The position numbers and the translations under genes are program-made. From NCBI GenBank assembly GCA_012845835.1, contig JABAKD010000024.1, positions 8,087,103 to 8,151,102 of the forward strand: a stretch of 64,000 nucleotides of DNA, in the 5' to 3' direction. The first letter of the stretch is position 1, and each line of letters opens with the position of its first letter. Source of the DNA: Undaria pinnatifida (Eukaryota; Sar; Phaeophyceae; Laminariales; Alariaceae). Below, piece by piece: positions 19,140-63,548 of this stretch. The notes under the pieces are model-generated. The model worked only from the letters and a program-made list of their open reading frames with translations, had not been told where the DNA came from and did no database searches.

Positions 19140-22100
19140 CTATTTCTTCATTTTCTCCCCAGTTTTTCGTCTGCGCTTCTCTGGAGGGGGGGGGTCGCTC
19201 TGTGCGCCGCGCGGAGCAGCCGCAGCCTGGCCGTCTTCTGGTCCCACGCCCATGATTGGTGATAAGAGAGTCATCCTGGCTCCTTGGCGTGATGCATTGT
19301 TCACCACGTCCACGTAGACACGAACTGCGGAAAAGGCACGTTCGAGTGTGTGGGTGTATGGTTGGTCAGAGGCGATTCGATGCGCAAAATGAGACCGTTC
19401 TTGGGTACTAACCTAGCGGTTCAGAGTGGTTTCGCGAGCATTGTTGCGCTTGTTCCCAGCGCCTACCACAATGCTTTGGCGTCGCCCGATTGTGAAATAC
19501 CAGGTACGGTTTAAATGTGTTATAAGCAAAGAGCATGGCTATCGCCACTAGGGTTGCCGGTGCCAGTCCAAACGCGTTATCTAAAACAAACAATATACCA
19601 TGTATAAAGCATTTGACACTAGCACTATTTTATTGCCGACGAGTCACATTGTCTCCTAAATAAACGGCTTCACTAGAGCAAACATGTATGTATTGTAGTC
19701 ATAATCGATCATGTTTCAAAGGCACATCCTGGGTCTTATCAGGGGTGGTAGTTTGCTCGGGAAAAAATAGAAAACTTCAGATGAAGTGTGCGGTGTACGG
19801 AATAGCCCACATCATTTTTAATGCAGATCTAAAGCAACCCAGGGCCATATCGACGGGTGCAGGAGACTATTCTATCCTCATGGAGTACGAGTAGCACAAA
19901 CAACGATACATTGGTTTCATAAAAAACTGACACTTTTGTAGGTTTGATTTGTTTCTCACCCTTCTCCATGATTTGGATGGTGGCACGCTTAGCCTTTTCA
20001 TCGGAGGCAGGGGGCACGTACTCGATCTTGAGCGCTTGTTGGTCGTAGTTAAACTCGCCACGCCCCGGATCCAAGTCGATCTGAAACAGTTACAGCAGCG
20101 GTGAACAATTCAAGCAATAACATTACCCTTTTTATATAGATATATCGGCGTGGCAACAATACGAGACAGGTCAGGCACAAATCACCATAGCAGTACCTTA
20201 CCACGTACTTGTACTGATAGGTATTTTAACAGACCAAGAAACCGATTTCAACCTTAGAAATAATTTATGGGGAGCAGGACGGAAATGCATACCGTTGGCG
20301 CTAAAATACAGTACATGATGTTTTGGAAGGCGACACATCCCTCAACGAGCCGGAACCCGGGGGAGAAAGAAAGGATGCATGATAAGTAAGGCGCGTTTAA
20401 AGCACTTGCACCACCAAAAACAAAACTCTTGTCACAGCAGATTCAGTGCTTGATCCACATGGAGGGCATCCGACGAGGCTGCCACCTGGTGCGCGATGTC
20501 ATGGTGTTTTTTCAGCTGCGAAACCACCAGCAGTCCATGATTTTGACTTTGTACATGGCGCAACTTTAAAAGCCACAACATCAGAAGATGTCACGCAAGA
20601 TTTTGCGACAGCCGGACTTCGGGAGCATGACGTGAATATTTTGGGACAGCAAGACTTTCAGAGTGCATGTTGTGACAGCAAGAGCTCGAGTGCATTGCCA
20701 ACGAAATTTTGTGGTAGCAAAATTTCGGGTGCAGACCCACAACCGACATATTTGCTCTCTCACCGTTCCTTCGATGCCGAAACGCGGCACGATGACCGAT
20801 AGCTTGGTCTTGGTGACGGAGAGCACGAAGGCGTCTTCCTCCGTCGGGTTATTCGCGAAGTACATCTCCGTGTGAAGACCCACAGACGCCCGCCCTACGC
20901 ATAGGCGGAAGGGCACCAGAAAATTGTCTCAAAACCGCAACCAACATGTGTGGGTTATGATAGCTACTAGGAGTTCCGCTAACACCGTAACATTACGCTA
21001 CGCGCTACTGGCTGCCGACCCTACTGTAGTGTCCCGGCTGAACGTGATGTGTTACAATTAACTTGCCGTATGAGTACAGCCTAGCACAGCAACAGAGTTA
21101 GTAATATACCAGGTATTGGGCATGTACGTTATCTGCCTAACGTTCGTTACCATAGCAACCAGGATTTTTGCTGACACCGTAACAGCATGTTACGCGCTAC
21201 CGGCTGCCGACCCTACTACACGTTAACGTAGTACCTGCATGTTACAACTCAATTGGCGTACAAGCTAACACAGCAACATGATGTTATCGTTATATAGGGC
21301 ATGTACGTTATCCGTGTAACGTGTCTAGATAGACCCTAGGAATTCCGCTAACGCCGATCCTTGCGTTACGCGCTACGGGCTGCCGACCCCATTACACGTT
21401 AACTTAGTATGCCACAACTACAGTACTGTGCATTGGCGTGTGACCTAACACAGTAACGTAATGTTAGCGTTGTATTAGGCATGTACGTTATTTCCGTCGA
21501 ACGTGAGTTTTTTTAAGTCGCCCATTGCACCAAATCGTGAACGTCATCTGCCCTTTGTCTGCCTTACACTTTGCTCTATCTGCTTCCTTGAGCGAGCGCA
21601 GCGGGCGGCGTATAGCCGCCCGCGGAGCGCAGCCTTGTACATACATACCTGCAAGCTGAGCCGAGCGGTGCCGCCGGTTCATGTTCTCCGTCAGGTCGTG
21701 TAGAAGGGCCTGCAACAGGAGAATGGAAGAAGTAATATTATCAGCATAGCTAGATACGAAATATGTAGGGTACCGGTGATATAGTAGGTGTCAGTTGTTG
21801 TTCTCGCCACATCTCTTGGCCAGTATTTAGTTCGTGAATCACCGGACAGGCTCCAATCAATCACTCTGGAGTGGAAGAATACCTCAGGCTAGATAAAACA
21901 AATAAAATACACTGAACCGAGCTCAATCGTACGCTTTAGACAAGAAATAGTCTCATGCTGTTTCGCGCCTCGAGGAGGGGGGATTGCTCTTACCTTGTCC
22001 ATGAGGAAAGTCGGCAACGGTGACACTCCGATCGCGGCGCCCAGTAGTCGGTGTACACAGACGTCAGCATACCGCCGAATCGGACTTGTGAAGTGGGTGT

Positions 22101-25100
22101 AGATGGGCGCCGCAAGGCCGTAGTGGTGCCACTCTTCCTGGGCCTGCTCTCCTGAGCAGAAGTACTGCGCCGGCATCATGCACCTGTTATTCTTGCCCAA
22201 CGGTTCAATTTGCGGTTGGCGAGCGTGCTCTATAAATGGTTGCATGCGTTGGGCAAAAGCATCATGTTCGTCCCGGCTGGGCAGAAGAGGGTGGCAAGCA
22301 AGTATGCCAGGAGGCGGCAAGTTTAAGAGGCATCAGTCACACAATTAAGAGTTCCCCCATTAAAAGTAGTACATTCAGTCTAGACCGTCGTCCACCACAG
22401 GCCTAAACTGCTGTCTCTAGACATCTTTGATGGCCAAGGGATGTTCGCATGCGGACGCTCCGGAGACATCTACGTAGAGGCAAGGAGAAACAGCAAAGCT
22501 TGTCTTACTTTGTAGCCTGTATTTTACAGCTGGACGGCGATAAGAACCAACTGATTGCCATAGGCTATACCGCGTGTCACCCGAGGTCTCGGTAGCGAGT
22601 AAATAATGGAGTGTAACTAAACAATGAAGTGCATCTTTGTATCGACGGATGCGTCCTACCCACTTGCTATATATGTCGTAGTTTGTGACCATAGAGCTTG
22701 TATCTTCCTATTGAATATTCTTATTGATTGGTTGACGAACCGGCACGGACACTGGATATGCCGGATGTCGATGGGTACAACGAACGGTTGAACACGAGCA
22801 ACACACACGAACAAGCGCGCACACACACCTGGTGCTGAGGATGCGGAGGAGCTTGTTGAAGTATGGGTCATCCTCTCTTATGGCACTGTCCAAAGATGCC
22901 GCCAGCTTCTTGGAGTTGTCGACTTCCAGCACTATCCCTACCGCCTCCGCGATGGCGAGAAGGCCGTCGAACTGCTGCCGGGACGGCGAAGGGTGCCGCC
23001 GGAGAACCGAAAGGGTGGGAAAATGCCTGCAGAGTGTGCACCGGGCAGGAATACACGTAATGGTGAGACACATAATAGGAAATTGAAAATCATGAATGAC
23101 GCCGACGTCGCGAATCAAGTCTGGGCTACGTAGTACTGACTTAAGGGTAGGGAAACGCCTGCAGAGTGCTTTGGGCAGGCACACAATGAGGACGCTCGTC
23201 CATAGAAAACTGCAAATCACGAATGCCCCCGTAGTCAGGATTGAAGTCTCGTCTACGCAGTAGCGACTATTAGTTACAGTGTCCATAAACGTTCAAAAAG
23301 AAAAAATGAAGAATCCAAAGTAGCTCTGAAAGCTGGTTCCTTGGTGATCACAGTAATCTTTTCGACGGGAAGCACAACCATTATTTCGATTATCATCAAC
23401 GTGGTTTCGATGCGAAGCACAACCATGGCTTCTTACTGGCGGCATGGGCAAGAGGTAATCTACCGGCCAGTCTTTCTTCAGGCCATTACGTGGTGTCAAT
23501 GTACGTGTGCGACAAGTAATGGCCTCATACTGTATTCAGACAAGTGAAGTAGGTAATACGTCTGAATTTCTGCGTCGATCATCAATTCCAACGAGATCAC
23601 GTCACAGGAAAGGAAACTTCAAAATTCGACATGAAAATTATTATAAATAATCAAAATACACCCCAGCTGTGAGATCGAAGACTTCGTCGAAACTCATCTT
23701 TGCAAGCTGTGTGATACTCCGATCGCGCGTATTACCGGGTGTGTCCTCATTAAGGATACAGGTCGGCCACTCCCCGTTAACTAGCTTGTACCAGGGTCAA
23801 CAGGGTGATGTTAATCAATCTGTGAAAGGAAACTAAAATTATCTCGCATAAGCGTTTCCCTCAAATCTAGCCTGTGTGGTAAGAGAACAGGCGAAAAAGC
23901 AACCCGATGGAAGCAAGCAGCCCTCTCTGCCGCGAAAACAACAGCTCGTCAAATTCGGGCAAAATCGAACAAAATTGAACATGTTCCTTGATCCCTTTAG
24001 AACCGCACCGACGTTTTTGGGAACAAACCACCTGAAAATAGTGTGGGAATACTTTAGCGGTTGTTCAAGGGTTTCCATATCTCACCTCAGGATTTTCTTG
24101 CCGACGGTGATGTTGGCCAGAAGCATGAACTCTTCCACCAAAGCGTTAGTTTCCTTGAGGGCGTACATCTGCACGTCTGTGGGGTTTTGGCTCTCGCTGT
24201 CCAGCACAAACCGTACCTGTTCAGATAGAATACGTTACTGTCAGATCCTACCCGTACAATTGTTCGTATGATCGTAGGATAATATCATGATAATATCATA
24301 CCTGAAACATGCCCCTGGTGATAGCGGCACCTGTTGAGATATAATAAGATAGGCTATCAGAAGCTATCCGTAAGAATCTTCGTACGAAAAATATTCTACG
24401 AATACCCTACGACGTACGATGAACCTCAAGCACACCCGCGACAAAGCATACCCCTGACCATGGACGACTGCTAACTGTGTCATGCTAGGTCGCCAAAATC
24501 AATCATGACAGAGCTTGTATCCGAGCGCAGGCAGCACCGTGCGACCCCCGGAAGCACCAAGGTTGTAGATTGTAATGCCTTACCACTATTAATAGTATGC
24601 TGTGCTGCAATGCACGGAAACGGTATCATACCTCTGGTTTACACACGGCACCATGCATCGAGTTGCACAAGGTACCGTAAAAGCATACCTCTGGTGATGC
24701 GAGCGTGAGGGCTCCAGCGTCCATGCGCCTTTTGCGAAAAATCTTAGCAAGGCGATTGAGCTGCCTGACGCCTTCTGCCTTGACGTCGTGGATGTTCGGG
24801 TCATCCAGCATCAATTGCGCTTCGTTGTACGTCAAGCCAGCCACGCTGTGGATGATAGACTTGAAGAAGTCCACTTGGACGATCTCGCCCGCAGGAGTCA
24901 TCTCCCAAATCACGCTGAACGCGAATCTAGCGTACATCAGGGAGGCGCACGTGCAGGTACGATTGACGAGACCAGAGCAACGTGAGCGTAGTACCTTTAC
25001 GAAAAATATGCTGGACGTCCTTTAACACTCTTGATACGCTGCACAATTGCAGCACGGCTTTCGCAAATAAGCTGTTCGAGGACAAACACCGAGAACAGTA

Positions 25101-28100
25101 CGTAAAGCGTCTGGAGGCGTAGCTTTCTAGACGTTGCAGGCACAGGTCTGCGTAGCTAGCAGAAGGCTGCGGAGCTTCCCCCTATGGGGCATGTGGTGTA
25201 TTCAAGAAGGCGATCAATTTGTCTTCCACAAATATCCCACGATCGACAACACCAGAGCAACGTGAGCGTGACCCATATGACGTACTCGAGAAAACGATCA
25301 ATTGGGCTTCTACAAGTGTTCCAAACGGATTGATGTGGAAGGGACGGGGAATCATAGCATGGGTGAATTAATAACATGGTGCATACATGGCATGGTTCAT
25401 TGCCAGCACGGTGTGGCGAATCTATGCACGAAGCCTTCCTTTAACCCCCTTAGAAGTGCACCCACGTTTCAGGGACAAACTACTTGCAATTAGAGTCAAA
25501 CTATTTTCGAAGTTCGAAAAGGTTAATGGTACAACAGCAATGATTCACACGTCTGACAGATCAGATCCCTATTAATTATCTGTTGATGATCTGTGTATTT
25601 TAGGGCGGACAGATCCCCGGTCTAAATGACCTGCAAGACTTATAGAACATGCTACCGGGTGAGGGTCGGAGTATCATAATTATCTGGCCCATTTTTCCTG
25701 GGTTGGACGTGCACTACACAGATGCTGCACATCATACGGATACAAGATCCATATGATCTATATGATCTATATGATCTAAACGATCTAGGTCGTGATATGT
25801 CCAATGTGTGCAATGATTAATTGGGGCCATCACATCACCTGTCAACGTTCGGCTTGAGCGAGCATAACGTCTCCGTGAGTATGCCCGGCAACATATCCAA
25901 CCGCTTATCCACGAGGTAAGTGGAAGTGCTCCGTGAAGCAGCTTCCTCGTCGAGAGCGGAGCCTGCCGCCACGAAGTGCGTGACATCTGCAATGTGGACA
26001 CCAACCTGAAAAATCGGGAAACGACGGCATGTCAAGAGAATGCGGTCAGTTGCTAATCGGTACATGCACCGACGAAGCGCGGTACATATGCAATGTGCAC
26101 GCCAACCTGAAAATAACTCAAGGATACGCGGGTATAAAAGGAAACTACGCCCATTTGCCAATCGGCTCCAAGGAAACGGTCTACTGGCCGCCATCGTTTG
26201 CTGATACCAACAAGAGTACTCGTACATTTCCTCGGCAACATTATCCCCCTACCATCGTACGGGTGCTACGATGCGGATGGCGCAGCATCCTTTCGACAAA
26301 CTGTTCTGGCTGACGGGGCTCTCCCACTGGAACTGAACATATATCTACTACCCGTTATCAGTGAAACCTCGTTAACCTTTCCAATGTGTAGTTCAATATA
26401 TAGCTCAATATATAGTTTAATACCTAGCTCATGATATTGTTCATCGGAGGGCACTTTCATCTTTCATCAAATACAGCGGCACTTTGGTATATAAAACAAA
26501 AAAGTTCACCTGTGAGATCGAGGATTTCGGTTTTGCAAGCGGCGTGTGGCAGTTTGATCGCAGCTGGGTTCGGGAGAGAGAGGTAGAGAGCTCCTCACGA
26601 AAAGTATTTTCATATTATACCTGGTACATTTTAGGTGCTACGATACGCCCATGGTAGCAGGCGTGAGGTTGATCTTGTCATACCATGCTCCGACAGCGCA
26701 TTGAGACAGGCTTACCTCAAGGTTGCCGTTTGGAAGAGGCCGTGCGTGTAGCGCGTCATCGATGTCCTTGCAGCCTGGCGGGTCGATGCTAAGCACCGGC
26801 AGATGGCGGAGGTCCTTCCTTCCCAAAGAGTTTTCCGCGGTTATGGTCCAGTCTTCTGGCGGCAAGCAGGCGAGTACCTTGCCCGAGAAGTTTTCGTGGG
26901 GGATCTCGTGCTCTAGAAGAATAACCTGGCGGAATACGAAGTATGGCGGTCAACGCGGAAACCACCGTCGCTCGTGTGTCGCATCCCTAAAAGGTCGTGT
27001 TGTAGATTGGCGCCGTTAAGCAAAGTCGGCACAACCCGTTGCTACAGCGTAGACAGTATTGGCTGCGCATTGTGTTATGGTGGAAGGGTTCGATGGCATG
27101 GCATATATAGAGTATAGCAGCCAGGGCGGTGAGCACAGTCGTTGAGGGCCCATCCCTAAACAGACACATCATCAGGAACGAATGCGAATTTTATTTTATC
27201 GGCGTCATAAAGAAAGGGACATTTTGGCTTCGATCGCCTAGCAGCTTCACAACATCGACCAACGTACACAAGCTGACGGCAGTTCCAACTATCCTGCTAC
27301 GCAAGTGCTAACGACAGCTACACTGTCATAGCGTGACGCCGTAACGAAAAGTCGGCATTCGGCAAATCAGTTGCTGCAAGCAGCAGACAGCATCTGCTCG
27401 TCTTTGAATACTGACACTGACGTTTTGGAACCTGCAATACCAAGGTTTCGAAATCTGAAAAATCGATTGGCAGATTTCAACAGGAATATATGGCTGACAG
27501 GAATAAACGGTCACCCGTGAGAGGACTGACTGGTTTTCTTAGTACGCAGGAATGGCTGGCAAAATTTTAGAGGTATGAACGGCCTCCTTTCGAAGGAATG
27601 AATGACATGCCTTCAGAATACAGGAATTAAATGAGTGGCCTCCTCAAACAGAAAAGACTGAGTGGCCTGGTCTGCTGTGCACTGACCTCCGTTTCCGTGG
27701 TCTTAACGCCCTTCTCTCCCAAGGTCTTGACGTAGTGCCCAAGAGGATACCTGCACCACGCTGGCCAGGAGTCCATTGCCACCAGGATCCGCTTGCTGCT
27801 GAGGACATCTCGCTGACGTGTCTGGATGCGTACCCACGGGATCTACAAAACCAATAAACCAACACAACCATTACAAGCAATACAGGCAACACAAGCGGTA
27901 CAAGCAACGAAAGCGACGGAAGGAGAAGGTCAATAGCTCGTCAGACGATTACACGATACCTGGTACCAGGTATATATCGATACCTGGTACCAAGTATATA
28001 TATATATATATATATATTCTGAATTAACGGTTGTTGTCTGCGGCTGTTGTTGTTGTCGTCGTCGTCGTGGCGGTCGTCGTCGTCGTCGTCGGCGTCGTCG

Positions 28101-31100
28101 CAAAGTTGGAGACTTGGGTACTTGGATACCTGGATTAGTGTGGGCTAAAAACATGATATTATGTATTTCGACTGTAGTACAACTGCTGTAACAGACATTT
28201 TCTTGTTCGCAAAAATAAACAAACCGGCCGCACAATGAACAGCGGTCCGGCGAAGGATGACCATACTTGCGGGATTCGCCACACAACAAAAACTCCGCTA
28301 GCGCAGCTCGTGTCGTACGGATTGAATTTACTGCTGCACCTTTCTGTCGACTTTGCTGCTGTACCTTTCTCTCGACTGTGCAAGCTATACATTTCTGTCG
28401 AATTTACTGCTGTACCTTTCTGTTGAGTTTACTGCTGTACCGTTCTGTTTACTGGTGTACCTCTCTGTAGAAATTTACTGTTGGCTTTATGTACACCTTC
28501 CTACTGTACCTTTACGACGACTTTACTGCTGCACCTTACTGCCGGCTATACTGATGTACAGTTCTGCCGAATATACTGCTGTACGTTTCTGTCGACTTTA
28601 ATGCCGTATCATACCTTTCTATCGACTGGAACAAAAAGAGCGCTGGTTGTTTGGCCTTTGCCGCTGGTGACTGCTCGATCTCCTTCAATCCGTAGGGATC
28701 CGCAGTACTGCTTCTCCCGCCAGTGCCGTCGGATGATGCCCACAACCCGGCCGCATGGCTGCTTTGCGCCTGCTCCCTTGAGCTTCCTTGTGTTCTCCTC
28801 ATCCTCTATGGCTGGTTGTGCGGTCGGCTCCGGCACCAGATTCTCCGCGGGTCTGTTGTCTTCAGCGTCACCCTCACCACTTGCAGCGTCGCCCTGAAAC
28901 ATCGATAAGAACCAAACAAAACAATACCTGGTACGATCATGCACCCCTCGCCAGAAAAGGAAATCAACCGCCCTTGACTCTTTAAGGGTCCAGGTTTACA
29001 AAAGACACAAACAACACAAACAACACAAACAACACAAACAACACAAACAACACACAATAGAAGTGAGGGCCATGCCAACCTTTTGCATCTAATCCAGTAA
29101 GAGCGCGTACCAGTATCAGTAGTGTCGTACAACTCCAAGCACGGCGGCTCCAATACTAAACACTACACTTGCCACTACCCCATCCAGCAGCCCGCGTTAC
29201 CTTCATGTGGCCGATGTTGTAATCGTCATTTTTATTCGAGACTTTGTCCCTCTCAAGTCCCAAAGGGGTTTCATTTCATGCCAAGCACTTCACTGAATGA
29301 AGACCACTCGATTGGGCGATGTATCCATGTTGTTACGGTAGCAGTCACCGCCACCCCCCTCAACAGCAGCCCGAAACAGCGCCTCAACTGCCGCCACTCT
29401 GGGCCGAATTTTCATGAGAGAAAGCAACGGCACGTTTGCTCACGAAATAACCAAGGCCTACAGCAAACCAATAAACAAAAGAGAACGGGTTGCAAAGCAA
29501 AAATTGTGCGGGAAAACATAACAAATGACTACTGATAAACCACACACAATATTATCCCGAGGGCACACGACAACAAGACAAAGCAACGCCACAATCCTGA
29601 AAAGAATGGAAACAAACCAGTGGGGAAAGATTTCTGTACGACCTAAAAATAAAATAAAAACTCAAGTTATATTAATAATTTATTTTTATTTGGCTTTTAG
29701 GACGACCCTTCCCTGTCCGGACCACGGGGGGGAAAAACTGTCGTTTAAAAACAAAAAAATCGTGTACCTTCGACCATAATGGCCTTTTTCATGTCGGCAC
29801 GCCCGTTTCGCCATTTTGAGAGCACCATTGGTCTTCTGACAGAAGCACACGCCATAGTGATCAAATCATACACCACACTGATCAAACCATAGACCACACT
29901 GACCAAACCATACACCACACTGATAAAAAAATACATTGCACTGATCAAACCATACGCCGTATTGACCTTTTTCTCTGTCGGCACATCTGTTTCGCCATCC
30001 TGAGAGTACCACTCGTCTTCTGGGAGAAGCTCGAACGCTACAATGTCGCCGTCCACCCCCCGGTTGATGCATTGCGCGCCACGGATGTAGACCGCGATGC
30101 GTTCGTCGTCCTGCAGGGGTCGAATAGCAAATACCAAAAACGCGTGTAGCGGGGAACGGCGGGAACACCAACAAACAGCATCAACAAACAGGACCAACAG
30201 ACAGTACCAACCGCGTTTGATGCGCTGATGGCGGGATATCATCGTGTCGCCCATTTTTGCAAGTGTCGAACTATAACTTGCACATTTGACAATTGTCACA
30301 GGATGCTATCGTGTCGGCCATGGTCACACGCGCAGTCGACACGCTATCAGTTATTGGTGCATCTCAAGGGACAAGTGTTCTTCCGGAGAAACCAGCTTAG
30401 AAAATCGTCCAAGGGAGCGTGCTATAATACCAGTAATAGCGTGTTGTACGGTACACCTGACCGAGGGCCTACGAGCCCATGCAAAGAAAACGGGCGGCAG
30501 GGAATAAGTCCCCTATTAAACATCAGGGTCGCAGTCCTTGCACCAACCACGGCACCGAGCACAAGCATGAGTCAAGAAAGCGCACTCCAGCATATGAGCC
30601 ATTGGCTGTGCATTCTATATGACACAACAGAGTACAATACGTCGGGGGACCGCAATTTACGTATGTGACGGACGGCCCTCTAGACGAAATGTACTATTTG
30701 TAGTGCGGGAGCTCCTGAGTGCGACTGACGGCGCTCGCAAGTGTTGTATTCTCGCAAATTTGCATGTTAAGTACTCGCACTGTACCTGCATGCCCTGCGC
30801 GACGACATAACACCGATTCGAGCTGCTCCGCTCCGCTCTTAGGGCCCCCTGGAAGTACCTGCGAAAGCCAAGACAACGAAATGACAGCAATCCAAAGAGA
30901 CATGTCTCGGTAGCGTCAACATCCACAATCACAATCAAAAATATCCGTGAGCTGGGAGTTCTTTCGATAGGCCGTTGCTCAGCTTTGCAACCTGTTCGTG
31001 ATACTATACACCTGTCCCACGTTTCCTAGATTTCTCGTGACGGACATATGCCCTGGATGGTTTCATCGTCCCCGGTCGGTACGTAGGTTCTACTGTCACC

Positions 31101-32775: not shown

Positions 32776-33399
32776 CTATATAAAAGTGTAAACAAGGGAC
32801 GAGGGGGAAAAATTGGGCGCTCCAGTACACACCCCATGAGCGGGATGCATGCCGTGTGACATGACATCGTAACTCTGCAGTACAAGCGCGACAACGGTCT
32901 CGAGCTATGATCACAACGCATCTTTAAGAATCGTCTTCGTCTGACTTTGGGATACTGTGTACGGAGCATGGCTGAGATGGGCTGGGTGTTGAGAGCAAAC
33001 ATCGACCATTCATAACTTGAAAACAACCAACATGACCACGCAGCCGACGTTTCAGAGTCATCTTGGAACATGCCAACCATCTCACACGATATGACGCCAT
33101 TACAAACGATGCGGAACAACCTATGGCGGCACCATCAAGAAGACGTCGTTCTCTCCCGCAAAAGCGCGCTCGTGCCATAGACTACTGCTGAACGTATCAA
33201 ATAACGCAACTGCCACAACGCTATACATACAGCACTTATCCATGGTCACCGTGCAACATGCGTCGACAACGGCCAGGCCATCGCTGTGCGCCACGCATTG
33301 AACGTGATGTATGATATCATCCTCACCAGGAATCTCTTCATGACCGACTCTCGGACCAGTTGTAGAAGGTCCTCCTGGGTAGTGCAAACGAAGTGCCAA

Positions 33400-47535: not shown

Positions 47536-48437
47536 TCCATATATCGGGCTGGCACATGCCGACACCATTTGCACATGCCGACACCATTATGCACATGCCG
47601 ACACCATTTATTTTTGAACCCCCGACACTACCACAACAGTTGAATACCAGGTGCGTAACAGATTCACAGCCCTACCCTCTACCCGGTATAACACGCAAGG
47701 TAAAGGCTAACACACCGCCTGGGATGAATGTCCGAGGCGATTTTCTCGACTTGAACGGGGGCAACAGCGAAAACGGTGGCTGTAGAAAACTATGTCAACG
47801 AGAAACCTCCACAGATAAATGCATCGCTTGGCGCTTGCACTCTCCGCGTTGTCGGCAAAATGAGCACGGGTACATAGTCGTCCGAGGAGGAGGAGCGTTT
47901 TGTTGTGCCGTGCGTGTTCGTTACCAGGTCGAGTGAACCAGGCAAATTATGTCAGGGGTCATGCCAAGCAAAGGACAACGCGAGCTGAGCCGCCAAGGGT
48001 CTACAGCAGGGCCGACTTCTTCACAACTAAACATCTACGAGTAGTGGCTAGGTGTCCGCCACGGCAAATGAAATGAAAACGGCAGTCCGCCAAGAGATGC
48101 ACGTGCTGTCTCCTGACATCTACCAGGTACCTGGCAGCACTGCTACTACTAATAGACTAGTCTAGTATACCAAGTAAATAATAGTACATGCTGCTGTTTG
48201 ACGTTGAAGTAGGTTGTGTATGTTCCGCTAGCACTCATACTGCTGTACTGCAGAGGTCAGTTATGGTGCTCACCAACGAATGAAGGGCTCGAGTACATGT
48301 CAAGACCTGGGCGTCGAAGGGCAGATCGCAGGAGAGGAAAAAGGGGTGCTTGCAAACCGCAAACAAACTACGAGGAGGGGAGGAGGGGGGGGCAAGGGAA
48401 TGCGGAGCTGCGGAGCTTTTTCTCTCGAGGGACCTGG

Positions 48438-48476: not shown

Positions 48477-48650
48477 ACACACGAAGTGACAGTCCTGCTG
48501 ACAGTCCCGCACACATGCTCCGTCTTTTAATCCTGAATCCTCAAGTCCTTGCCTATAATCAAGTCTCAAGTGCACGTGCTCTACGTGGGATCATACACTG
48601 CTATTTTGCCAGCAATAATGTACCAGGTGCCTGGTAAGCTGATGGGCAAC

Positions 48651-51600: not shown

Positions 51601-52634
51601 CCTTCGCATCCTTTCCGAGACGGAGCACCGTTCCTACTCGTAATAGAGACGCTTTCAACATTTTGGGCTGATTGCGTTTTTCCCGTGTACCTAATATTAC
51701 AAAGCAAATGTTTGTCTTAACCCCTTCCTGTTTTGAATTTTGTACCCACCATCTATCTTCTACTTATAGCGTTCATCGGGGGGGGGGGGGTGTTGTCGTC
51801 GTATCACGCGTGACCGTAGTCCGTAGAACCACAGATCGTCGCATTCCCACAATGCCGGGACGGAGCACGTCGGGTTTTACCGACCGGACAGCACAAATAT
51901 GCCTTCTGTCTGATGCAGAGTGATGTCCTCGTCGGCTGTTGTTCGTGTTCGCAAATGTCGAGCCGACCATGCATTATTCGTGAAAAGTGCAAACTGCTGT
52001 ATATCCTTATCTAGGCACGTTGTGCAGGCTAACCTCTAAGCAAACGCAACGCAGTACCAGTTGTACTCGATACCTTAAACACCCCAACCATTTATTTGGG
52101 ATAGACTACTTGGAATATGATGGGGAAAACGTAGCAGAAACAAGACTTAAGTATACCGCCCTTTCCCGCTACTGATACAAAGTGTATTCTAGCCGACTGT
52201 TGTCGTTCCTGTCTCGTGGCGTGTCTCAAACACTCGAAGGCCTCTACCTGCCCACGCTCAAGGAAACAACGATCTTCTACCAAAAGCTGGGATTCAACAA
52301 ACGACGCAGATTGATTTATTGCTCTATTCACCATCCTACAAAATGACGAAGACTTTCTTGTGTTAGTTCCAACCATAATAAATGACAAAGACATGTTTGC
52401 CGACTGTGATCGTTCTTGTCTCGTTTCGCGTCTCAACAGCTCGAAGACCTGTACCTGCTCACGCTCAAGGATACGACCAACTTCTACCAAAAATTGGGTT
52501 TCGACGTCATTCCTCCCGAGGACGCGCCGCCCGTCCTGAGAGCAGAGCGTGCGGTTGGTTCCTTCATCCAATCGTTTTTCGGCGATTCCCTCGTTTGCAT
52601 GCGTGCAAGCGTGCAACATCCGAATGGTGCATGA
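48651..52634 (+). CDS. GNAT-family N-acetyltransferase with plastid-type presequence
   Basis: Exons 48651-49094, 51405-51515 and 52440-52634 join in phase 0 to give about 249 residues. GNAT enzymes transfer acetyl from acetyl-CoA to amines; the substrate is not predictable. The start MKFLAVLLSWLGVASAF is a signal peptide with an ASA|F cleavage motif, followed by about 75 Ser/Thr/Arg-rich residues: a bipartite plastid presequence. The domain begins FRAALPEEDGAIRRIL and NPMSIDVKNFVCAE, then GFGQ, ELASLHI, the acetyl-CoA loop QRCRGIGSSLV, and LYLLTLKDTTNFYQKLGF. Between GFGQ and ELASLHI about eight residues seem to be missing relative to the family, so an unfound microexon is possible. Intron 1 carries a 1.06-kb TIR element, and exons 2 and 3 have partial copies around them. 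Confidence 0.85.
49829..50891. mobile_element. 1.06-kb terminal-inverted-repeat element
   Basis: A 24-bp terminal repeat beginning GTCTGTCCGGTTAAATTT at 49829-49852 is matched, inverted with one mismatch, at 50868-50891. The interior is rich in T runs and includes a 108-codon plus-strand frame (50305-50631) with an AT-hook-like TGRGRPKNRKPG and an acidic tail. No transposase signature and no evident target duplication. It sits in intron 1 of the GNAT gene; it is likely non-autonomous. Confidence 0.75.
50994..51029 (+). repeat. Interstitial telomere-like repeat
   Basis: CTAACCCTAACCCTAACCCC followed by degenerate CCCCAACCCTACCC. A second patch, on the other strand, is GGGGTAGGGTTAGGG at about 63694-63708. 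Both support a TTAGGG telomere type. Confidence 0.75.
51181..51248 (+). repeat. Partial copy of GNAT exon 2 start with acceptor
   Basis: About 185 bases upstream of exon 51405-51515. It keeps an acceptor-like CACAG and reads FELASLHVGD against the true FELASLHIAEP, then diverges; the acetyl-CoA loop is absent. Confidence 0.75.
51548..51880 (+). repeat. Diverged direct repeat after GNAT exon 2
   Basis: 51548-51650 and 51780-51880 both start with a G run, then TGTCGT, a GGCCGTAGTCGTAAGACCA-like stretch, TCGCAT and GACGGAGCAC. It lies in the GNAT intron between exons 2 and 3. Confidence 0.6.
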
Positions 52635-53275
52635 GCGGAATTGATATAGTGTAACTCTTTCATTTGCGTATGTGAAAGCGTGCAACACCCGGCCTATGCA
52701 TACCCGGACCTCTTTTTTTTTTCGTGATTCCCTCGTTTTCATGCGTACAAGCGTGCAGCATTCGAGTGGTGTATGAGCGGGATCGATATATTTACGATAG
52801 GGCCACTGCGACCTAAAACCCGATATAATGGCGTTGCGGACGCAGCCTACCGTGCTCTTAGACGTATGTCCCGAGGCTGCCCCGGCCGTCGTAAAAGCAG
52901 AGCGTGTGGTTGCTTACTTCGTCCAATCGTTTGTCGGCAACTCCTTAGTTTTTGCATGCGCGTAAGCGAGCAACATCCATGTGATGCACAACCGGCGTTG
53001 GTATTCGTTTTTTTCGCAATTCCCTCGTTTGCATGCCAGCAAACGTGCAACAACATCCGAGTGACGTAAGAACGGAATCGATCCGAACGACGCCTTGCCA
53101 CCTGGCTGTTGCTGTTGCTGTTGTTGTGGAGCCGTGTGGAGAGGCTCGCTGTGGCCTAGTCGTTTTTCGGCAACTCCCTTGTTTGTATGTGTGCAAGCGT
53201 GCAAAGTCCTTGTGATGTATGAGCAGAATCGTGTGCGTGCAACATCGGAGTGGTTTATGAGCGGAATCGATCTTT
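52190..53275 (+). repeat. Partial copies surrounding the last GNAT exon
   Basis: Upstream, 52190-52310 copies the exon start (EGLYLPTLKETTIFYQKLGF) but its acceptor AG is changed to AC. Downstream, 52853-52975 copies the second half (PAVVKAERVVAYFVQSFVGNS). Five further fragments repeat the exon's 3' end (core TTCCCTCGTTTGCATGCG, then GTGCAACATCCG) at about 52650-52695, 52722-52790, 53010-53085, 53155-53225 and 53230-53272. Confidence 0.8.
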
Positions 53276-54347: not shown

Positions 54348-54650
54348 CCGGTCGCCCCGGTGGCGTATCAGGTTATCCTCGAGCCTGGTATAGGTCAGTT
54401 TCGTGAGTTCGAATCCCCCCGATTGCATACTCGTATAAATTGGTGGGGACTTTTTCTTGCGCACAAATTGACTTGCGGAAAGCGCGAGAGCGTGAGTTAG
54501 CAACATTCGATGAAAAATCGACGAGCAGTGGGATTGCTGAACCCTATGCGCGATAAAAATTGAAGGCAAGAACCGGGGGGGAGAAGGGACGACACCTGTG
54601 ACCACGGCTTGTCCAGAAGCTGGAAAGTAGAAGTGTGCGAAAAAAAAAAA
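54348..54650 (+). mobile_element. tRNA-derived SINE, full-length copy
   Basis: Starts CCGGTCGCCCCGGTGGCG; A-box-like GTGGCGTATCAGG, B-box-like GAGTTCGAATCCC about 45 bases later, a body through CAGTGGGATTGCTGAACCC, and an A(11) tail. Nearly identical to 47224-47535 over the body, so the family moved recently. Confidence 0.88.
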
Positions 54651-56179: not shown

Positions 56180-59100
56180 TTAGCAACTGGTGGCATGCTG
56201 TATGGCCGCCTTTTCTCCTTGCGACAGACCTCCCCACGCCTTCTCCATCACCGCCGGCGGCATCGAGGTCTGGAAAAGTTAAAAGGGGAAGGGATGGATA
56301 GGTTTGGTTAGGTTGCCATGTTTTATACAGGACGGCGCCCATCGGTAGGCATCGCAAAGAGAGTGCCCTGCCTGCCCAACAAGGCGTATTGGAAGGACAG
56401 ATGCGAGTTAGTTGCGATTGAAAAGTTCTGCGGGAAGATCCCTCTCGTTCAACAATCCTTCTCTTGCATCGATTTCCTTGCACAAGGCCATGGCGCACTC
56501 GTCCATTGGCGGGTCTGAAATAATATCCTATTGAGACACGCTACCGGTATTCGCAGTATCTGTCGACATCGGTTTAAGTTTTGTATCTGGCGGTAAATAA
56601 AATAATAAAAAAACAAAGACAATGTGAGTAAGCATCGAGGTTTGGTCATAATGGTCATCAAAAAGTTTACCCCTTTTGGGACTCACCTATCGCGACACAA
56701 AGAACGCGAAGCGCAGTTTTATCGTCGGTGTCTATAAACAACGTCAGCGTGCAGCGCACGACTGTCCATCCATTATTAACACTACTCCGTTTACCATCTG
56801 GCAAATGTGTAGCGCTTGTTTCAACCATACCATCTATATGAAAAGGAAACGCACAGTCCAATCATTTGGGGTTCGAGTTATTCATCATCCCCTTGCATTG
56901 AAACCTTGCATCCAAAATCAGGACCTCTTTCATTGGAGCCCGACACATAAAAGCATCATCCCTACAGGAACTCGACATGTTAAAAGCAGCACCCGCTGAT
57001 AAAGCGGCCCGCAATGTTGTTTCTTTGTGGCTGATACCGTTGTCGTAATTTCTATTCATCAACATGTGGATACCGGATCCTACCCCCTAGATGATAACGC
57101 CTCCTTATCATCCTTCAAGTGCTGCCTTCTCGGCAGGGTCTCATCCTGAAATAGGCGTTTATTTATTGAATTTCCCAAAGGGTTGTGGGGGTTTACCTGC
57201 ATGCTCTGGAGAAGGCGCCCCATGCGCTGAGCTGTGGGGGTGTCAACACTTGCCGACTCAGAATCCTTGAGGAAGGCCTCCAGGATTTTTCCTAGCACCG
57301 TTACCACCGTCGGCACCTGCCAAACCGAAACCGTTCCCAAACGAGTGGACGTCAAACTTTCCATACAGGCTACAAGTACGAAAACGAAGGACACGCCAGC
57401 TAGCGCTGGATTGCGAATGCAATTGAGTTAAATCGACACACGACGTACATGAAAATACGTGGAAGTGTGGTGAGCTTAAGCTTTATTTTTCCCCATCTGC
57501 CGGAGGATTAAAAAAAAAAAAAAATGTCAGGTTCAAATAATGCATGCAGAATAGTCTTCCTCGCCAGTTTTGCTATTGTGTGATTTTTTGCCCGTTCGCT
57601 CGAGGGAGAAAAAAAAAAAGTTTCACGTAGCAGCTGTGGGTTGCAACTTTCCCACGGTTCAAGGAAAATGAGCTTCTCGCCTTTGACGACATGGACTGCA
57701 AGCCGAAGTCGTCTCCAAGAGTGGCGGTCAAAGCTACGATAAAAGCAATATATACAGTGTGTATGTCAAGAGTACACTGTACTATTTAATAGGTATACTA
57801 CAGCACCGTTGCCACGGTGGAAACCTGCCAAACCGGAACCGTGCACAACCGCGGCGGTTAAAAAAGTTGACACGAGTTACCCGTAAGTAATCGGAGTTGT
57901 GTCATTGTTGCAGAATTCATTGCTAAAGGGTGAACTTAAGGCTACCAATGGGGTCGCCTGCCGTGGGTCGCCACCCAGCGCAGCTGGATCAAATTAGGGT
58001 TGGGAATTCGAGTTTGAGTTTGAGTTTTGGCTATTTCTGCTGTATTCAGAGGGTGAATTCAAGGGTATCGATGACGGTACCTGCCCGAGTTCGGCACCCA
58101 GCTTAAACATGCAACTCCTTTAGAACCGCACCCATGCTTTTGGGGACGAAGCACTTGGAATAAGAGTGGACTATTTTTTGCAGTGATACCATACAATTAG
58201 GGACATTTTTATGAATGGCGTTACCTGTCCTAGGTCGCCACCCAGCACCGCCGGATCTTGCTGCTCGACGAGATCGCACAGCATCCGATGCACCACCCGG
58301 GCCTCCGTCACATCCTATGCAATGGAAATCCGACAGCGACAGAGTTAAGTGTAAACTCCGGTATAACTGCACTGACCATCCCGGGGACACAATACTTGGA
58401 AATGAAAGTGGGAATATTCTTGCAGGTTCTCGGAACGTTAACCCCTTTGGCACTTAAGACGCAAAAAAAATGACGAGAAAAAATGCCGATTACAGCATCG
58501 GCCACACGAAGCAACCCGAGCTGCTGGTGTAGGAGATGTCTTCGAACTGGAAAACAGGAAGCTGTGTGAGGCAAGCGTGAGGCATGGCGATACTCGGATT
58601 GCTTGAAGCTCTTTCCTAGACGCTTGGTTAGATCGCGCTTGTCGCTTTTTGGTCTGTATGATAAATGGGTCCCCAAAGGGCGCCACCTACAACGAGAGAG
58701 GAAACATGTGTAAGATGGTTCAAGCTGTCGCTACTGCTCTAGTAACTATTTCCGTGCAGGACACATGTAACTGTGGTCTACTTGTGTGTGATGGTCAAAG
58801 GGCGCCACCTACAACGAGAGAGGAAACATGTGTAAGATGGTTCAAGCTGTCGCTACTGCTCTAGTAACTATTTCCGTGCAGGACACATGTAACTGTGGTC
58901 TACTTGTGTGTGATGGTCGTCGCACAGTATCCGATGTACCACCCGAGCCCCCGTCACATCCTGCCGAATGGAAAACCAGTAATGGCAGCATTAAGCGTCA
59001 AGCAAGCGCCACCTACAAAGAGACCGGACCCCTCATACATATATATATAACAGGCACCATTTAATAACCGACAGTATACACTTGTGACTTTATATAATAC

Positions 59101-62100
59101 TTCGAAGTATGTATGATGCAACAATGAAACGAGCTGCACGACAGACACAGCGTCATACAAACTGTACTCCTACGCGGTAGAAATATCAATAGGCGGGAAT
59201 ACCCAAAAATTATTGATTTCGTGGGGAAAGGTTTTGCGTCCCAGTAGAGCACGTCTTTGAGGGCGAGGTTGGAAAGGCAGAGAGGAAGCACTTGCGCGAT
59301 AAAACGCGAGTCCCAGCATGTATTATAGTGATAATATTAAGGGTCTCAAAAGGGTTCGTAAAAATGTTTTAATAATAAAACTGCACCTGCTTCTTCGGGC
59401 ACAACTAACTTCGAATTATACTGGGATTAGTGCTGGATCATATGTTTCGTAGCTGAAGGGTTAAGACGGTGTTAAGACAAAGGGCCAATTAAGACAGGTC
59501 AGAAAGGAAGCACTTGCGATAAGACGAAAAGCGCCATTAGAAGTAAAAGAGTTACGATTTGTCGAAAGAGCATTAAGGGTCCTAAAACGATTTAATGCAA
59601 AGGTAAGATAAAGGGTAAACCAAGACAGCGCACCTCTTTGAGGGGCAGGTTGGACAGCCAGAGAGGAAGCACGTGTGATAAGCCGAATATGCCTTCATGT
59701 CTTGTCGCAAGATAACTAAGCGTCCTCAAAGGGTTCTACAGGGTCAAGACGAAGGGCCAATCAGGACAGCGCACCTCTTTGAGCGGCAGGTTGGAGAGCC
59801 AGAGAGGAAGCAGTTGCGATCGGTCGACAGCCGCGGACAGAGCGGGAGAGACGCAGAGCGTTCCGATAGCGGCGACGGCGTTCTCCGTGACGAGCAAGCT
59901 TTCCTCATCATCAGCGTCGGAGCGGTTAATACACGCCACCAACTGCCGCACCACCTAACAAAGCCATGTACAAGAGCAAGAGCGGGACATATTCTAAGTG
60001 TCGGGGGGGGGGGGGGGGGGGGGGTCATAAATTTATACGAAGTGTTATTGTTACTACTGATTTGGCCATCGGGCCGTGTGGAGCGTTTGTTCCAAGTATA
60101 CCATCGACATACAAACGGAAATCCAACATCCAATCAGTCCAGACATAAAAGATGCCACCTGTTAAAAGGTATGATAGGGGTCATTGATTAGTTAGCGTAT
60201 TATTATCGGGATTCGGCGATGAGCAAGCCGTCCTCGTCCTCAGCGCCGGAGCGGTTGATAAACGCGACCAACTGTCGCACCGTCTGACCAAGAACAAGCA
60301 CGGGTGATATACAGATAATTCGTATACAAGTATGCTAGCGGATATTTAACTAGTTAACTCACATTATACCTGTTGACTGAAAATTCGGCAAATTTTACAT
60401 GGAGCAGCATGATTTACTTCAGCTATCCTACGTGCGTGGGACAGCATGACTAGCAAGACTTACCTCGGCTAGGTGCAGTGCAGCATGACTTACCTCAGCT
60501 ATGATATCCTACGTACATAGGGCAGCATGACTAGTTTGACTTGACTCAGCTATATATGTTATGTACATAGCAGCATGACTAGCATGACCTACCTCGTCTA
60601 GGTGGGGCATCACGAAGGCGGGCGCTTGCTTGGCGGTCTGCTGCACACCGTACACGGACGCCATCTGCAGCATTGGGCTGTCCTCCTGTAACACATATCG
60701 AGAGGTTGCACCAGGTAGTTCGCAGGGTGGGGCCGGGGTTAACCAACGTCACGGATAAGAAAGCAAGCAAACTTGGAGAGTGGAGATAGTGTCCGTCTGG
60801 CGAAAAAATCATACGAGCGACGGTGGCAGAACAGAACAACGACTCCAGCAGACACTACAGTATGTTTATTTTCTACACCGTACACCGACGCCATCCGCAG
60901 CGTCGGGTTGTCCTCTTGTACCACCTATTCATAGGTTGAACTGCGTATTACTGGCTTGTGCCAGGTAGTATGCAGGGCGGAGCCGAGGTTCAACGACATC
61001 ACGCCAACGTTGTAGGTGAAGATGGCGTTCGTAACGGTAGCAAAACAGAGCGCAGTACCTGGACTACATATACCAGAAATACATGAATACGCGTGCTCGT
61101 TCGATTGCGCCACTTCGATGTTTACGCTGATAAATGCATTGCTACTTAACTGATGTTTACATTGATGAGCACTGGATGTTTACATCAACTGCGATTTGAC
61201 GTTTATATCGATGTTTACATTGATGCTATTAATAGCATTGTTTTTACGTTCACGCTTACATGATGTTTAGATTGGTGAAGACATTGATGAAATAAGAGAT
61301 TAATGACGGCACTGATGAAGACGTTGATGGTTTATGTTGATGTTGACATTGATGAAGACATCCATTACGTCGGTGAAGGCTTTGATGAAGACAACGATGT
61401 TTGCTTTGATGTTCGTACGTGTTCAAGTCGATGTGTGTATCGATGATAACATTGACAAAGACTTCTACCGTTTATATCGATGTTTACGCCTATCTTCCTA
61501 TTGATGTTTACATCGAGGAAGGCGTAGATGAAGACACCGAAGAAGATATTGATGTTCACGACGTTGATCAAGACAACGATGATTACATTGATGAAGGCAT
61601 TGGTGTTTACCGCCGTCATGGTTAGAATGACGTTTACATCGATGAAGATAACGAAGAAGACATAGACTAATATGTGAAGAAACTGACGACGACATTAACG
61701 CTTACATTGATGTTCACACTCACGTTTTCCTTGATGCTTGCAATCATGTCTACGTTGCTGTTCATGTTGACATTGATGAAGACAGTGGCATGCATATTGA
61801 TTGGTACAATGTGTTTGCATTCATGTTCAATTGATGAAGACATCAGCACAGAGACATCGATGAAAAAACTAATCAAACACATCCATGTTTATGGTGTCAA
61901 TGATGTTGACATTGATGAGGAGATTGACATCGACGAAGATACTCATGAATACTGATGAAAATATGCATGTTTGCGTTGACGACGGCATTCATGTTTACGT
62001 TGACGAAGACCTGACGTTTTCAGTAATGAAGACCTTGATGTTTACCTTGATTACAACACTCACAAAGACATACATGAAGACATACATGAAGACCTTGATG

Positions 62101-63548
62101 TTTACTTGGTGTTAGCATTGACGACGACCTTGATTAACACTGTGGATAATAGAGTTATTGGGTTGGTGTTTATATTGATGTTCCCCATGATGAACACACC
62201 AGGTATTGACGAGGACTTACCGACGTCATGCCTTCCATGAAAGCTGGGAAGCAAGCAGGGAGGTATTTGTGGGCTCCCTCGCCGCAGTGTTCGATCACGT
62301 CGTCAAACACACAAACGGCGTTCCATCTGACACAGAAAACGGCAACAGTTTTGGACATTGCACGGGGTTTTGTATAAGAACAAGACAAACACACCGTGTG
62401 CCATGTGTCACAATGGTAGACGGCAACAGTTCGCGACCATGCATGGGCTTCCGTTCGGTGTTCGATCTGACGCGCAGAAAACGGCAGCAGTCCGTAAACC
62501 ATCAACAAGGATAGACCTGGTGGTCACCACCAATACTGTTAACACTCATCAGGAATACACAAGCGGCGGTGGCTAAACGTACTACTATAATACTTCGTAC
62601 CGTTAAGCTGTGGTTACCTACCTCAACGACGCGGGCTGTGAGCTCTCCAGCAAAGAGCCGAAGGCGGGCGCGGTGACGGTGTCGAACACATGCAGGTAAG
62701 CAGGGCCGTGCCCCTTGAGAAGATACCCCAGCGAGTCCACCAGGTGCTCCATCACCTCCTGCATGGACGGAGGCGGTACGGAGGTGGCAGGGGTGAGTTG
62801 ACTACCGAATAACTTCCAAGAAAACACACCCCATCTAACTATTTTCCAAGCTAACTTTTTCGGCCACGGGGAGAGTCCAAACGCCAAGCGACAAGCGACA
62901 CATCTACGGAAAATCTTGACGACATCTTCCGAAAGCCGCTATTTCGTGGTGTGTGCCACCCCGGGCTTGGAGGGAATCGGCCCTGATATTCGTCGGAGGG
63001 TCTGTGTGTGGTATATTGCGTGTTATCTACTCATTTTTTATTTCATTTTTCATATCCTCCGGAGATGGGGAGAAATAACGCTCAACTCCTTTAGCCCCGC
63101 AGTCCCGACACGGGGACAAAGCATTTGGAGTTAGCCTAGGAAAATTCGAGCAGTTGGAAATGGGTCAACACCACACTTTCCACGTATTTTCTACTAATCT
63201 CTTGCACCGTTTGCGGTTTTCCTCTAAGGGAAAGGGAGAGTGCGATGCACCAATATATATTGAAACCCCCTTGCTAATCCTTACCTATTGACAATCAGAC
63301 GCGTACCATCAGAATAAAATATGGTACCATGAGGAACTGGAAACTACTTGCCCGCCAGCAGTGCATCGCAGCCACACCGCCACACCTACCTCTTCGGGTG
63401 CGATTTCTTCGTCGAGGAGCTCGCTGTCCTCCTCGTCCCAAGCACCCTCCACATTAAACTGAGCCTCCTTGGCGGTACGACGCTCCAAGGAAGCCTTCAC
63501 CCGCGCTATCAGTTCTTTAGAAATGGTTGCGGCTGCCTCCAAGGGTGC
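56180..63548 (-). CDS. IPO5: Importin-5 / karyopherin beta-3, C-terminal third (5' end beyond window)
   Basis: Eight exons with matching phases: 63390-63548, 62622-62758, 62221-62326, 60593-60685, 59775-59954, 58225-58314, 57197-57316, 56180-56269, about 323 residues of a protein near 1,100 long. Importin-5 is a HEAT-repeat receptor that carries ribosomal proteins and histones into the nucleus. The segments follow the family order: the Arg/Glu-rich SLERRTAKEAQ with an acidic loop (DEEDSELLDEEIAPEE), CVFDDVIEHCGEGAHKYL, EDSPMLQMASVYGV, ENAVAAIGTLCVSP, LLPLWLSNLPLKE, VVHRMLCDLVEQQDPAVLG, PTVVTVLGKILEAF, RMGRLLQSMQ, and the C-terminal LSQGEKAAIQ. The reading frame is intact. Introns contain partial exon copies, a perfect 122-bp tandem repeat and a 1-kb minisatellite. 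RanBP6 or importin-4 are less likely from the C-terminal match. Confidence 0.91.
57940..58110 (-). repeat. Two downstream copies of an importin exon end
   Basis: After exon 58225-58314, its end (GGTGGCGACCTAGGACAG then GTAACG) recurs at about 58076-58110 with an intact GT donor and at about 57952-57996 with GC in the donor place. Both copies include some flanking intron, so tandem units of about 120-130 bp are likely. Confidence 0.72.
58675..58918 (+). repeat. Perfect 122-bp tandem duplication
   Basis: 58675-58796 is repeated without visible change at 58797-58918 (unit begins AAAGGGCGCCACCTACAACG). Perfect identity implies a very recent event or an assembly artefact. It abuts the copy of an importin exon start at 58916-59005. 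Confidence 0.92.
58916..59005 (-). repeat. Upstream copy of importin exon start
   Basis: Copies the acceptor and first half of exon 58225-58314: CAG then GATGTGACGG, reading DVTGARVVHRILCD against DVTEARVVHRMLCD. About 20 bases of intron match too. Confidence 0.78.
59250..59700 (-). repeat. Downstream copies of importin exon 59775-59954 end
   Basis: The LLPLWLSNLPLKE end plus donor recurs at about 59640-59695 and 59250-59300 (LPLCLSNLALKD), with a short fragment at 59487-59520. The surrounding GATAAGACGAA and AAGGGTCC words repeat as well, so the whole 450 bp is a degenerate tandem array. Confidence 0.72.
60003..60024 (+). repeat. G(22) homopolymer
   Basis: A run of 22 G in an importin intron, close to exon 59775-59954. 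It may form a G-quadruplex and is a likely sequencing-error site. Confidence 0.95.
60190..60290 (-). repeat. Upstream copy of importin exon 59775-59954 start
   Basis: Reads VRQLVAFINRSGAEDEDGLLIAES against the true VRQLVACINRSDADDEESLLVTEN and is then cut by a stop. The acceptor region has changed from TTAG to CAGACG-type sequence. Confidence 0.78.
60410..60925 (-). repeat. Copies flanking importin exon 60593-60685
   Basis: Upstream, 60845-60925 copies the exon start (QEDNPTLRMASVYGVE against QEDSPMLQMASVYGVQ). Downstream, three units of about 60 bp (60410-60590) repeat the exon-end donor context CAGCATGACTTACCTCAGCTA. Confidence 0.72.
61110..62190 (+). repeat. Degenerate 1.1-kb minisatellite
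   Basis: Words GATGTTTACATTGATGAAGA and variants recur about every 24-36 bases for 1.1 kb in the importin intron between exons 60593-60685 and 62221-62326. Several frames stay open for 70-90 codons and read Asp/Glu/Ile/Val repeats, but none is longer than the repeat itself. It starts and ends without sharp borders. Confidence 0.85.
63088..63155 (+). repeat. Dispersed short element family A, importin intron copy
   Basis: AACTCCTTTAGCCCCGCAGT, then GGGGACAAAGCATTTGGAGT: the family A core with a diverged left half. An inverted copy lies at 63770-63835. Confidence 0.65.

Follow-up and report, generated by a model that had tools for sequence, protein, structure and literature searches.

Exon ends repeated in the flanking introns of brown-algal genes: probable traces of tandem duplication across splice junctions

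Genes in the window

The window, by which we mean the whole 64,000-nucleotide stretch of Undaria pinnatifida DNA analysed here, is brown-algal nuclear DNA from a genome assembly of 511 Mb. Gene models were built by splicing and checked for GT-AG borders and reading frame, and the junction analysis set comprised seven modelled genes with 35 introns and 70 junctions. The DIS3/RRP44 gene occupies 19140..33773 on the reverse strand and has 19 exons, namely exons 1-7 (33651-33773, 33327-33374, 32680-32775, 31911-32086, 31236-31538, 30786-30858, 29967-30110), 8-13 (28615-28893, 27687-27842, 26716-26925, 25839-26005, 24689-24926, 24086-24216) and 14-19 (22829-23026, 21994-22183, 21649-21709, 20764-20894, 19960-20080, 19140-19324). 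Its model was checked against six relatives, including five brown algae, and the protein is 82-83% identical to those of Ectocarpus and Pylaiella. One scan of viral contigs for a related DIS3 locus found none. The GNAT model was checked against six homologues, one of which (P0121) reads into the first intron. The gene at 56180..63545 on the reverse strand we take to be importin-like from recognition of its sequence; a Pfam search of that strand in three frames gave no match. The importin model covers the 3' part of the gene, the upstream start lying outside it, with exons at 63390-63545, 62622-62758, 62221-62326, 60593-60685, 59775-59954, 58225-58314, 57197-57316 and 56180-56269.

Exon ends are repeated in adjacent introns

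The initial annotation had claimed that exon ends recur in the flanking introns, and direct repeats of the described type are indeed present at the sites it named. In the seven modelled genes there are 13 local duplications that cross a splice junction: four in DIS3, seven in the importin-like gene and two in GNAT. In DIS3 (all reverse strand), the acceptor of exon 22829-23026 lies in a tandem duplication (23011..23268), in which the copy of the acceptor and exon start (23143-23268) keeps AG; the acceptor of exon 25839-26005 lies in another (25957..26165, offset 101), its copy at 26058-26165 also keeping AG. The donor of exon 28615-28893 is carried by an array of 11.5 copies of a ~25-bp unit (28324..28629), and the donor of exon 29967-30110 is duplicated (29746..30068), the copy at 29746-29882 having GC in place of GT. 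In GNAT (forward strand), duplications include the acceptors of exons 51381-51515 (51116..51433; copy 51116-51246, AG kept) and 52440-52634 (52177..52505; copy 52177-52298, AG lost). The GNAT stop-codon region is also repeated downstream (52500..53271), as a clear copy at 52858-53052 and fragments extending to 53271. The cases in the DysF gene are short arrays and weaker than the remaining ones: a 23-bp array of 2.5 copies (16290..16347, forward strand, TRF) lies over a donor (16296), an array of period 23 and 4 copies follows the stop (18916-19010, TRF), and a unit at 18861 was identified by eye.

In the importin-like gene (reverse strand), copies are present at 7 of the 14 junctions. Three copies (the acceptor copy 57802-57896 and the donor copies 58013-58102 and 59456-59568) had been missed by the initial annotation. 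The acceptor and first part of exon 57197-57316 are repeated at 57802..57896, with AG kept and a site score of 12.1 against 12.2 for the real site. Exon 58225-58314 has two donor-end copies at 57889..58102 (57889-57990, GT changed to GC; 58013-58102, GT kept; duplication 57889-58257) and an acceptor-end copy at 58911..59001 (AG kept; duplication 58259-59001) that outscores the real site, 10.7 to 7.9. Three donor-end copies of exon 59775-59954 are found at 59246-59296, 59456-59568 and 59560-59686 (duplication 59246-59830), and its acceptor-end copy, with AG kept, is at 60213..60310 (duplication 59884-60310), about 20 bp from the 60190 given by the initial annotation. Exon 60593-60685 has a donor-end copy at 60396..60488 (GT kept; duplication 60396-60615), again outscoring the real site (11.6 to 9.6), and an acceptor-end copy at 60875..61032 (duplication 60645-61032) in which AG is present with a very low site score.

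To set these similarities against chance, exon-terminal 50-mers were compared with the adjacent intron, with 200 draws per junction as the null. At 9 of 70 junctions the scores were 21-36, whereas the null maxima were 10-17; p<=0.005 was reached at 10 of 70, including one where the score, at 14, was weak. For the intron beyond the opposite end of the exon, p<=0.005 was attained at 2 of 56 junctions, where the scores were just 12, and a score of 14 or more at none of the 56. When whole internal exons were used as queries, seven matches scored 22 or above; each extends to within 2 nt of the exon end on the side of the copy and spans 29-71% of the exon. Thus, whole-exon duplication can be ruled out, since every match is partial and includes one exon end only. 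In all 13 clusters the copies keep the order and strand of the exon end plus its adjoining intron, and 13 of the 14 counted exon-copy alignments share 27-109 nt of intron, the remaining one sharing 7 nt. Because the copies carry flanking intron sequence, the duplication took place at the DNA level, and exon-specific or mRNA-mediated copying is ruled out. The copy lies within 100 bp of the original in 10 of the 13 junction clusters, two of the 13 being directly head-to-tail (a gap of 1 and an overlap of 3); in the other three it is 220-555 bp away, so that their tandem origin is presumed. Polarity, shared intron flanks and near adjacency all fit the junction-spanning tandem duplication that had been proposed, and tandem duplication across the splice junction is supported as the explanation of the copies.

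The same annotation had suggested that such duplications could be the main way in which introns grow in this genome, which the numbers do not support. Junction-crossing copies make up ~7% of intron bases (a hand sum); if the additional members of every local duplicate are counted, the share is 11.5% (3105/26988), and the duplicates as a whole cover 17-18%. Dispersed repeats cover at least 14.3%, as judged against a very small genome sample.

Random duplication or targeting to junctions

Based on these observations, we consider it quite probable that the frayed exon ends are for the most part what remains to be seen of random tandem duplications after selection has acted on them. Many short head-to-tail duplications, mostly of about 100-300 bp, would hit the non-coding DNA of this genome, presumably at random with respect to junctions. 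When a unit crosses one splice junction, splicing could ignore the inner site and keep using the outermost donor and acceptor, which would leave the mRNA unchanged, while the exon end and splice site within the inner copy would stay behind in a longer intron and decay neutrally. Units wholly within an exon would be purged by selection; units internal to an intron would survive as well, but lose similarity faster since both members drift. Survival of junction-crossing and interior units together with the purge of exon-internal ones would thus leave frayed ends as filtered random duplication.

An alternative that we regard as unlikely is a targeted process that directs duplication to splice junctions or to the edges of exons, for instance through transcription- or R-loop-linked breaks, in which case junctions would gain copies faster than intron interiors. 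The modelled genes have 13 junction clusters and eight interior ones. The latter include a 122-bp tandem duplication with 100% identity (58674..58918), a triplication of a ~190-bp unit in a DIS3 intron (20954..21509), a degenerate array in an importin intron (61122..62202) and a tandem duplication with 87.6% identity in a DysF-gene intron (18015..18385). The junction share seen is 62% (13/21) compared with an expectation, corrected for viability and detection bias, of about 37% (P=0.018-0.020), the expectation coming from a simple simulation in which rates were assumed and unit lengths were listed by hand. Targeting would also accord with copies at half of the importin junctions, with one of the eight interior clusters starting within 2 nt of a junction and with a gene on contig 26 in which both ends of one exon are copied. 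However, this is a post hoc excess that is driven by a single gene, the importin one (7:2); the remaining genes have 6:6 (P=0.27). Furthermore, interior duplications supply the three pairs of highest similarity in gene introns (100%, 90% along just 31 bp, and 87.6%), whereas junction-crossing pairs are 68-82% identical. A same-intron copy was found for 151 of 1030 intronic 50-mers (4 of 1030 in the null), without enrichment near junctions (37/280, against 114/750 in the interior), a comparison blurred by the inner members of junction duplications, which count as interior.

Samples from elsewhere in the genome also bear on this issue. The independent sample consisted of 200 kb of contig 1 and six 10-kb pieces, with exons predicted by a home-made exon finder trained on the window. 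At an exon score of at least 20, an adjacent copy was seen at 7 of 136 exon ends and an opposite one at 3 of 136, whereas 513 of 3737 non-exon 50-mers had a one-side local copy; other cut-offs gave 3 adjacent and 2 opposite of 40 (>=30), 4 and 2 of 70 (>=25), and 9 and 5 of 198 (>=16). The same method applied to the window gave 9 adjacent and 0 opposite of 64, and 53 of 903 non-exon 50-mers. The result of the independent sample runs against targeting and against generality, but we give it little weight because many of its larger predicted genes read, by eye, as retrotransposon ORFs. An RNB search yielded four anchored exons that were kept (L027, L028, L032 and L033); L029, L031 and L034 (within the window) were dropped, as was L030, whose match contains stops and whose modelled exon looked wrong, and which had an adjacent donor score of 23. 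Clear copies are found at two of the eight ends of the four kept loci, both belonging to the L032 exon, so that the pattern is seen in one of four unselected exons elsewhere; a weak low-complexity match inside the L028 exon (21) was left out of the count. In a kinase gene on contig 1, six adjacent ends scored 8-20; the best of them, where a repeat array lies close to a donor and the exon end is uncertain, was left out of the count.

Junction targeting is thus not established. That junctions are hotspots for short tandem duplication in this lineage, with introns growing edge-inward, layer on layer, seems to us rather improbable. If it were true, introns would hold stacks of defunct exon ends along with decoy splice sites that are almost functional, and the spliceosome would have to enforce actively the choice of the outermost pair.

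Neutral decay of the copies

Differences between exons and their copies amount to 12.0, 13.4 and 27.2% at the three codon positions, compared with 23.7% in duplicated intron; overall, exon parts differ by 17.5% and intron parts by 23.7%. The differences are those of one neutral lineage at constrained sites and of two at free sites, and the copies decay neutrally. Coding constraint on the copies was not found, codon positions 1-2 differing by 12.7% (55/434), about half the two-lineage intron value.

The proposal that the copies supply decoy splice sites is borne out as far as the letters go: AG or GT is intact at 12 of 15 scored copy sites, and three have a score equal to or above that of the real site. 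Inner sites scoring roughly level with the real ones or better lie at 60464, 58960, 59634 and 57824. It is tempting to see in this a function, whereby the copies are kept to control isoforms or intron retention, as decoy sites or as alternative ends of exons, but we find this very improbable. The share of sites retained is close to the 77% that, by our arithmetic, is expected under ~12% drift per copy base, codon positions 1-2 differ at the rate of one full neutral lineage, and whole-exon copies are absent among the seven whole-exon matches. Proteins of relatives likewise have no insert at DIS3 junctions 28615, 26005 and 23026 or at the GNAT junctions; DIS3 junction 29967 falls in a stretch that is variable among them.

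Chance similarity or an assembly artefact is scarcely credible, since the scores far above the null and the strict polarity oppose it and misassembly, possible for the 100% identical interior duplication, cannot produce the 18-32% differences between junction-crossing members.

Relation to known systems

Copies of exon ends are common here, yet they are probably in the main what random duplication and selection would leave. Because the exon is conserved, they act as slow clocks that can still be recognised when interior duplications have long since faded, and could be used to gauge the rate of short tandem duplication in the introns of any genome. They also provide naturally occurring decoy splice sites for tests of site choice, and some of these equal the real sites in score.

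To our knowledge, intron lengthening other than by transposons is poorly documented. In tandem exon duplication and mutually exclusive exons, exon sequence is repeated in the neighbouring intron; in contrast, the kelp copies comprise part of an exon with a single splice site, and their decay is neutral. A likeness to intronic minisatellites is seen at the donors of DIS3 exon 28615-28893 and of the DysF gene, which lie within arrays of 23-25-bp units, whereas in most kelp cases the copies number one to three and measure about 50-160 bp. In the Rogers-type model of intron gain, as presented in a review (PMC3443670) and a Drosophila study (PMC2891723), a new intron is bounded by direct repeats. 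A short tandem duplication of exon sequence with splice signals, after which the mRNA may stay unchanged, is common to that model and to our cases. Gain of this type is ruled out for all 35 modelled introns by comparison of donor and acceptor flanks, none of the 35 having matching flanks at the 99% level of 1190 mismatched pairs. Among the nearest known parallels to the duplications seen here is the potato RdRp gene, for which Ma et al. (2016, PMC4974935) describe intron gain via a tandem duplication that spans the boundary between intron and exon. In both, the duplication carries the intron 3' end, the acceptor, part of the exon and splicing signals. As described there, the copy in potato is put to use and contributes exonic sequence as well as a new intron, whereas in the kelp the inner copy is apparently unused and, instead of an intron being added, the existing one lengthens.

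Exon-end copies and their polarity

Local direct repeats are numerous when the window is compared with itself, and they include what the initial annotation had described as exon ends duplicated into flanking introns. We analysed DIS3, GNAT and genes which we take, by recognition, to be importin-like, 2H-phosphoesterase-like, TIM-like, DysF-domain and methyltransferase-like (35 introns, 26,988 bp, 70 junctions). Clustering at the gene level gave 21 clusters, 13 lying across a splice junction and 8 in intron interiors, one of the latter (24215-24387) including 2 exon bases. The junction alignments continue from exon sequence on into the intron. Their polarity is also as claimed: a copy scoring at least 21 is present in the adjacent intron, on the exon end's own side, for 9 of the 70 exon ends, whereas none of the 56 opposite introns holds an exon-end match scoring 14 or more. 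At p<=0.005 the matches are 10/70 adjacent and 2/56 opposite, both opposite scores being 12. Four more junction clusters are detectable solely through their aligned intron part. When whole internal exons were searched, all 7 matches extended to the exon end adjoining the copy. Two identical 122-bp members form a tandem duplication at 58674-58918, which ends at the edge of an old exon-end copy (58911 or 58920 in two alignments); it is a candidate polymorphism or assembly-check case.

Decay of the copies and candidate decoy sites

Over 14 exon-copy alignments, a count that leaves aside one decayed copy and two others that are array-like, sites differ at 113/647 in exon parts and 193/816 in intron parts. 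By codon position the differences are 26/217, 29/217 and 58/213 for positions 1, 2 and 3 (position 3 versus 1+2, p=9e-6). Duplicated intron pairs differ by 23.7%, and since this reflects drift in both members, one neutral lineage corresponds to ~12%. Positions 1 and 2 differ by one lineage, the copy drifting while the exon stays static, and position 3 by about two. The exon-end copies appear to be dead: such a pattern is expected when an exon is constrained and its copy drifts neutrally.

The copies supply candidate decoy splice sites, AG or GT being intact at 12 of the 15 scored. With a matrix built from just 35 introns, two copy sites (58960 and 60464) outscore the real site, 59634 equals it, 57824 comes within 0.1 of it and 11 of the 15 are weaker. 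A decayed donor copy (59456-59568), a short donor copy (60522-60552) and further array units lay outside this scoring.

Are junctions favoured?

If units are placed at random and may lie only within an intron or over a single junction, the expected junction share is 31.8%, rising to 37-37.5% once the slower visible decay of exon parts is included. The share seen, 13/21, has P=0.004 against placement alone and 0.018-0.020 with the decay correction, values that are optimistic because the finding was chosen on account of these same cases. By gene, junction clusters are 7/9 in the importin-like gene and 6/12 in all others (P=0.27). On intron sequence alone, 50-mers lying up to 100 nt from a junction show no enrichment in local copies (37/280 versus 114/750), a comparison blurred by the inner members of junction duplications. 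Outside the modelled genes, with a shorter context, 64 of 789 50-mers in the window have a local copy.

Beyond the window, both ends are copied into adjacent introns in one of four unselected RNB-gene exons (L032, contig 26; acceptor-end copy 1372-1426 with AG kept, donor-end copy 1779-1931 with GT kept), and the other three have no countable exon-end copy. Predicted exon ends in a 260-kb sample, by eye largely retrotransposon, have copies at 7/136 adjacent and 3/136 opposite; the adjacent rate is lower than the local-copy rate of non-exon DNA there. In a protein-kinase gene on contig 1 (L009, about 2200-2900), a repeat array close to an exon end includes TCAAGGTATGC units that look like donors, and is similar to the DIS3 array at 28324-28629. 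At the start of contig 1 (L001), predicted exons are spaced about 1.65 kb apart, which suggests a long-period satellite.

Contribution to intron sequence

A large part of the intron sequence in these genes comes from local duplication: any local-duplicate member covers 4844 of 26,988 bp (17.9%), extra members alone 3105 bp (11.5%), and a second tally of local direct repeats gives 16.7%. Because dispersed repeats, identified from the window plus some 276 kb of this genome, make up at least 14.3%, local duplication is not demonstrably the main source, and the proposal that it is the main way introns grow is not borne out.

One dispersed repeat (32277-32400, 47430-47553 and 54348-54453; copies 87-96% identical) looks like a tRNA-derived SINE, with A- and B-box-like stretches discernible by eye. 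The ~1 kb at 13199-14209 aligns with its reverse complement at 84% and so forms a large inverted repeat, perhaps a foldback element. An interstitial run of CTAACC-like telomere-type repeats, also noted by eye, lies at 50990-51030, upstream of the GNAT duplications.

Gene models and relatives

Exons were joined at GT-AG borders with the reading frame preserved. The DIS3 model had 983 residues in its initial form; it is 81-83% matched by the DIS3 proteins of Ectocarpus, Pylaiella and Scytosiphon, and 90% by one further protein. Comparison with relatives revised one acceptor and added two first exons; the remaining junctions agree, except for inserts of 8 and 5 residues in two relatives' proteins, at junctions that are unfrayed in the window. 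The GNAT model is matched by a Laminaria digitata protein; its N-terminus (48650-48720) has a signal-like start carrying an ASAF motif, like that of plastid-targeted proteins in algae with secondary plastids. The DysF-gene intron 16297-17523 may contain a hidden exon. The window comes from a brown alga, probably a kelp, and corresponds to C31:8087103-8151102 in a 68-contig assembly totalling 511,146,479 bases. Kelp assemblies in print are similar in size (511 Mb for Undaria, PMC7058681), and PMC11836290 gives a mean intron of 1816 bp in Saccharina japonica.

Comparison with published cases

Among the titles and abstract openings searched, with subscription papers outside the coverage, we found no report of exon-end copies lengthening introns, in general or in brown algae. 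The AGGT model is set out in PMC3443670 and PMC2891723, the latter citing many fly duplications, mostly tandem, with a median of 367 nt. The closest published case found is the potato RdRp gene (PMC4974935), in which a tandem duplication likewise spans an intron-exon boundary and the copy serves as a new intron.
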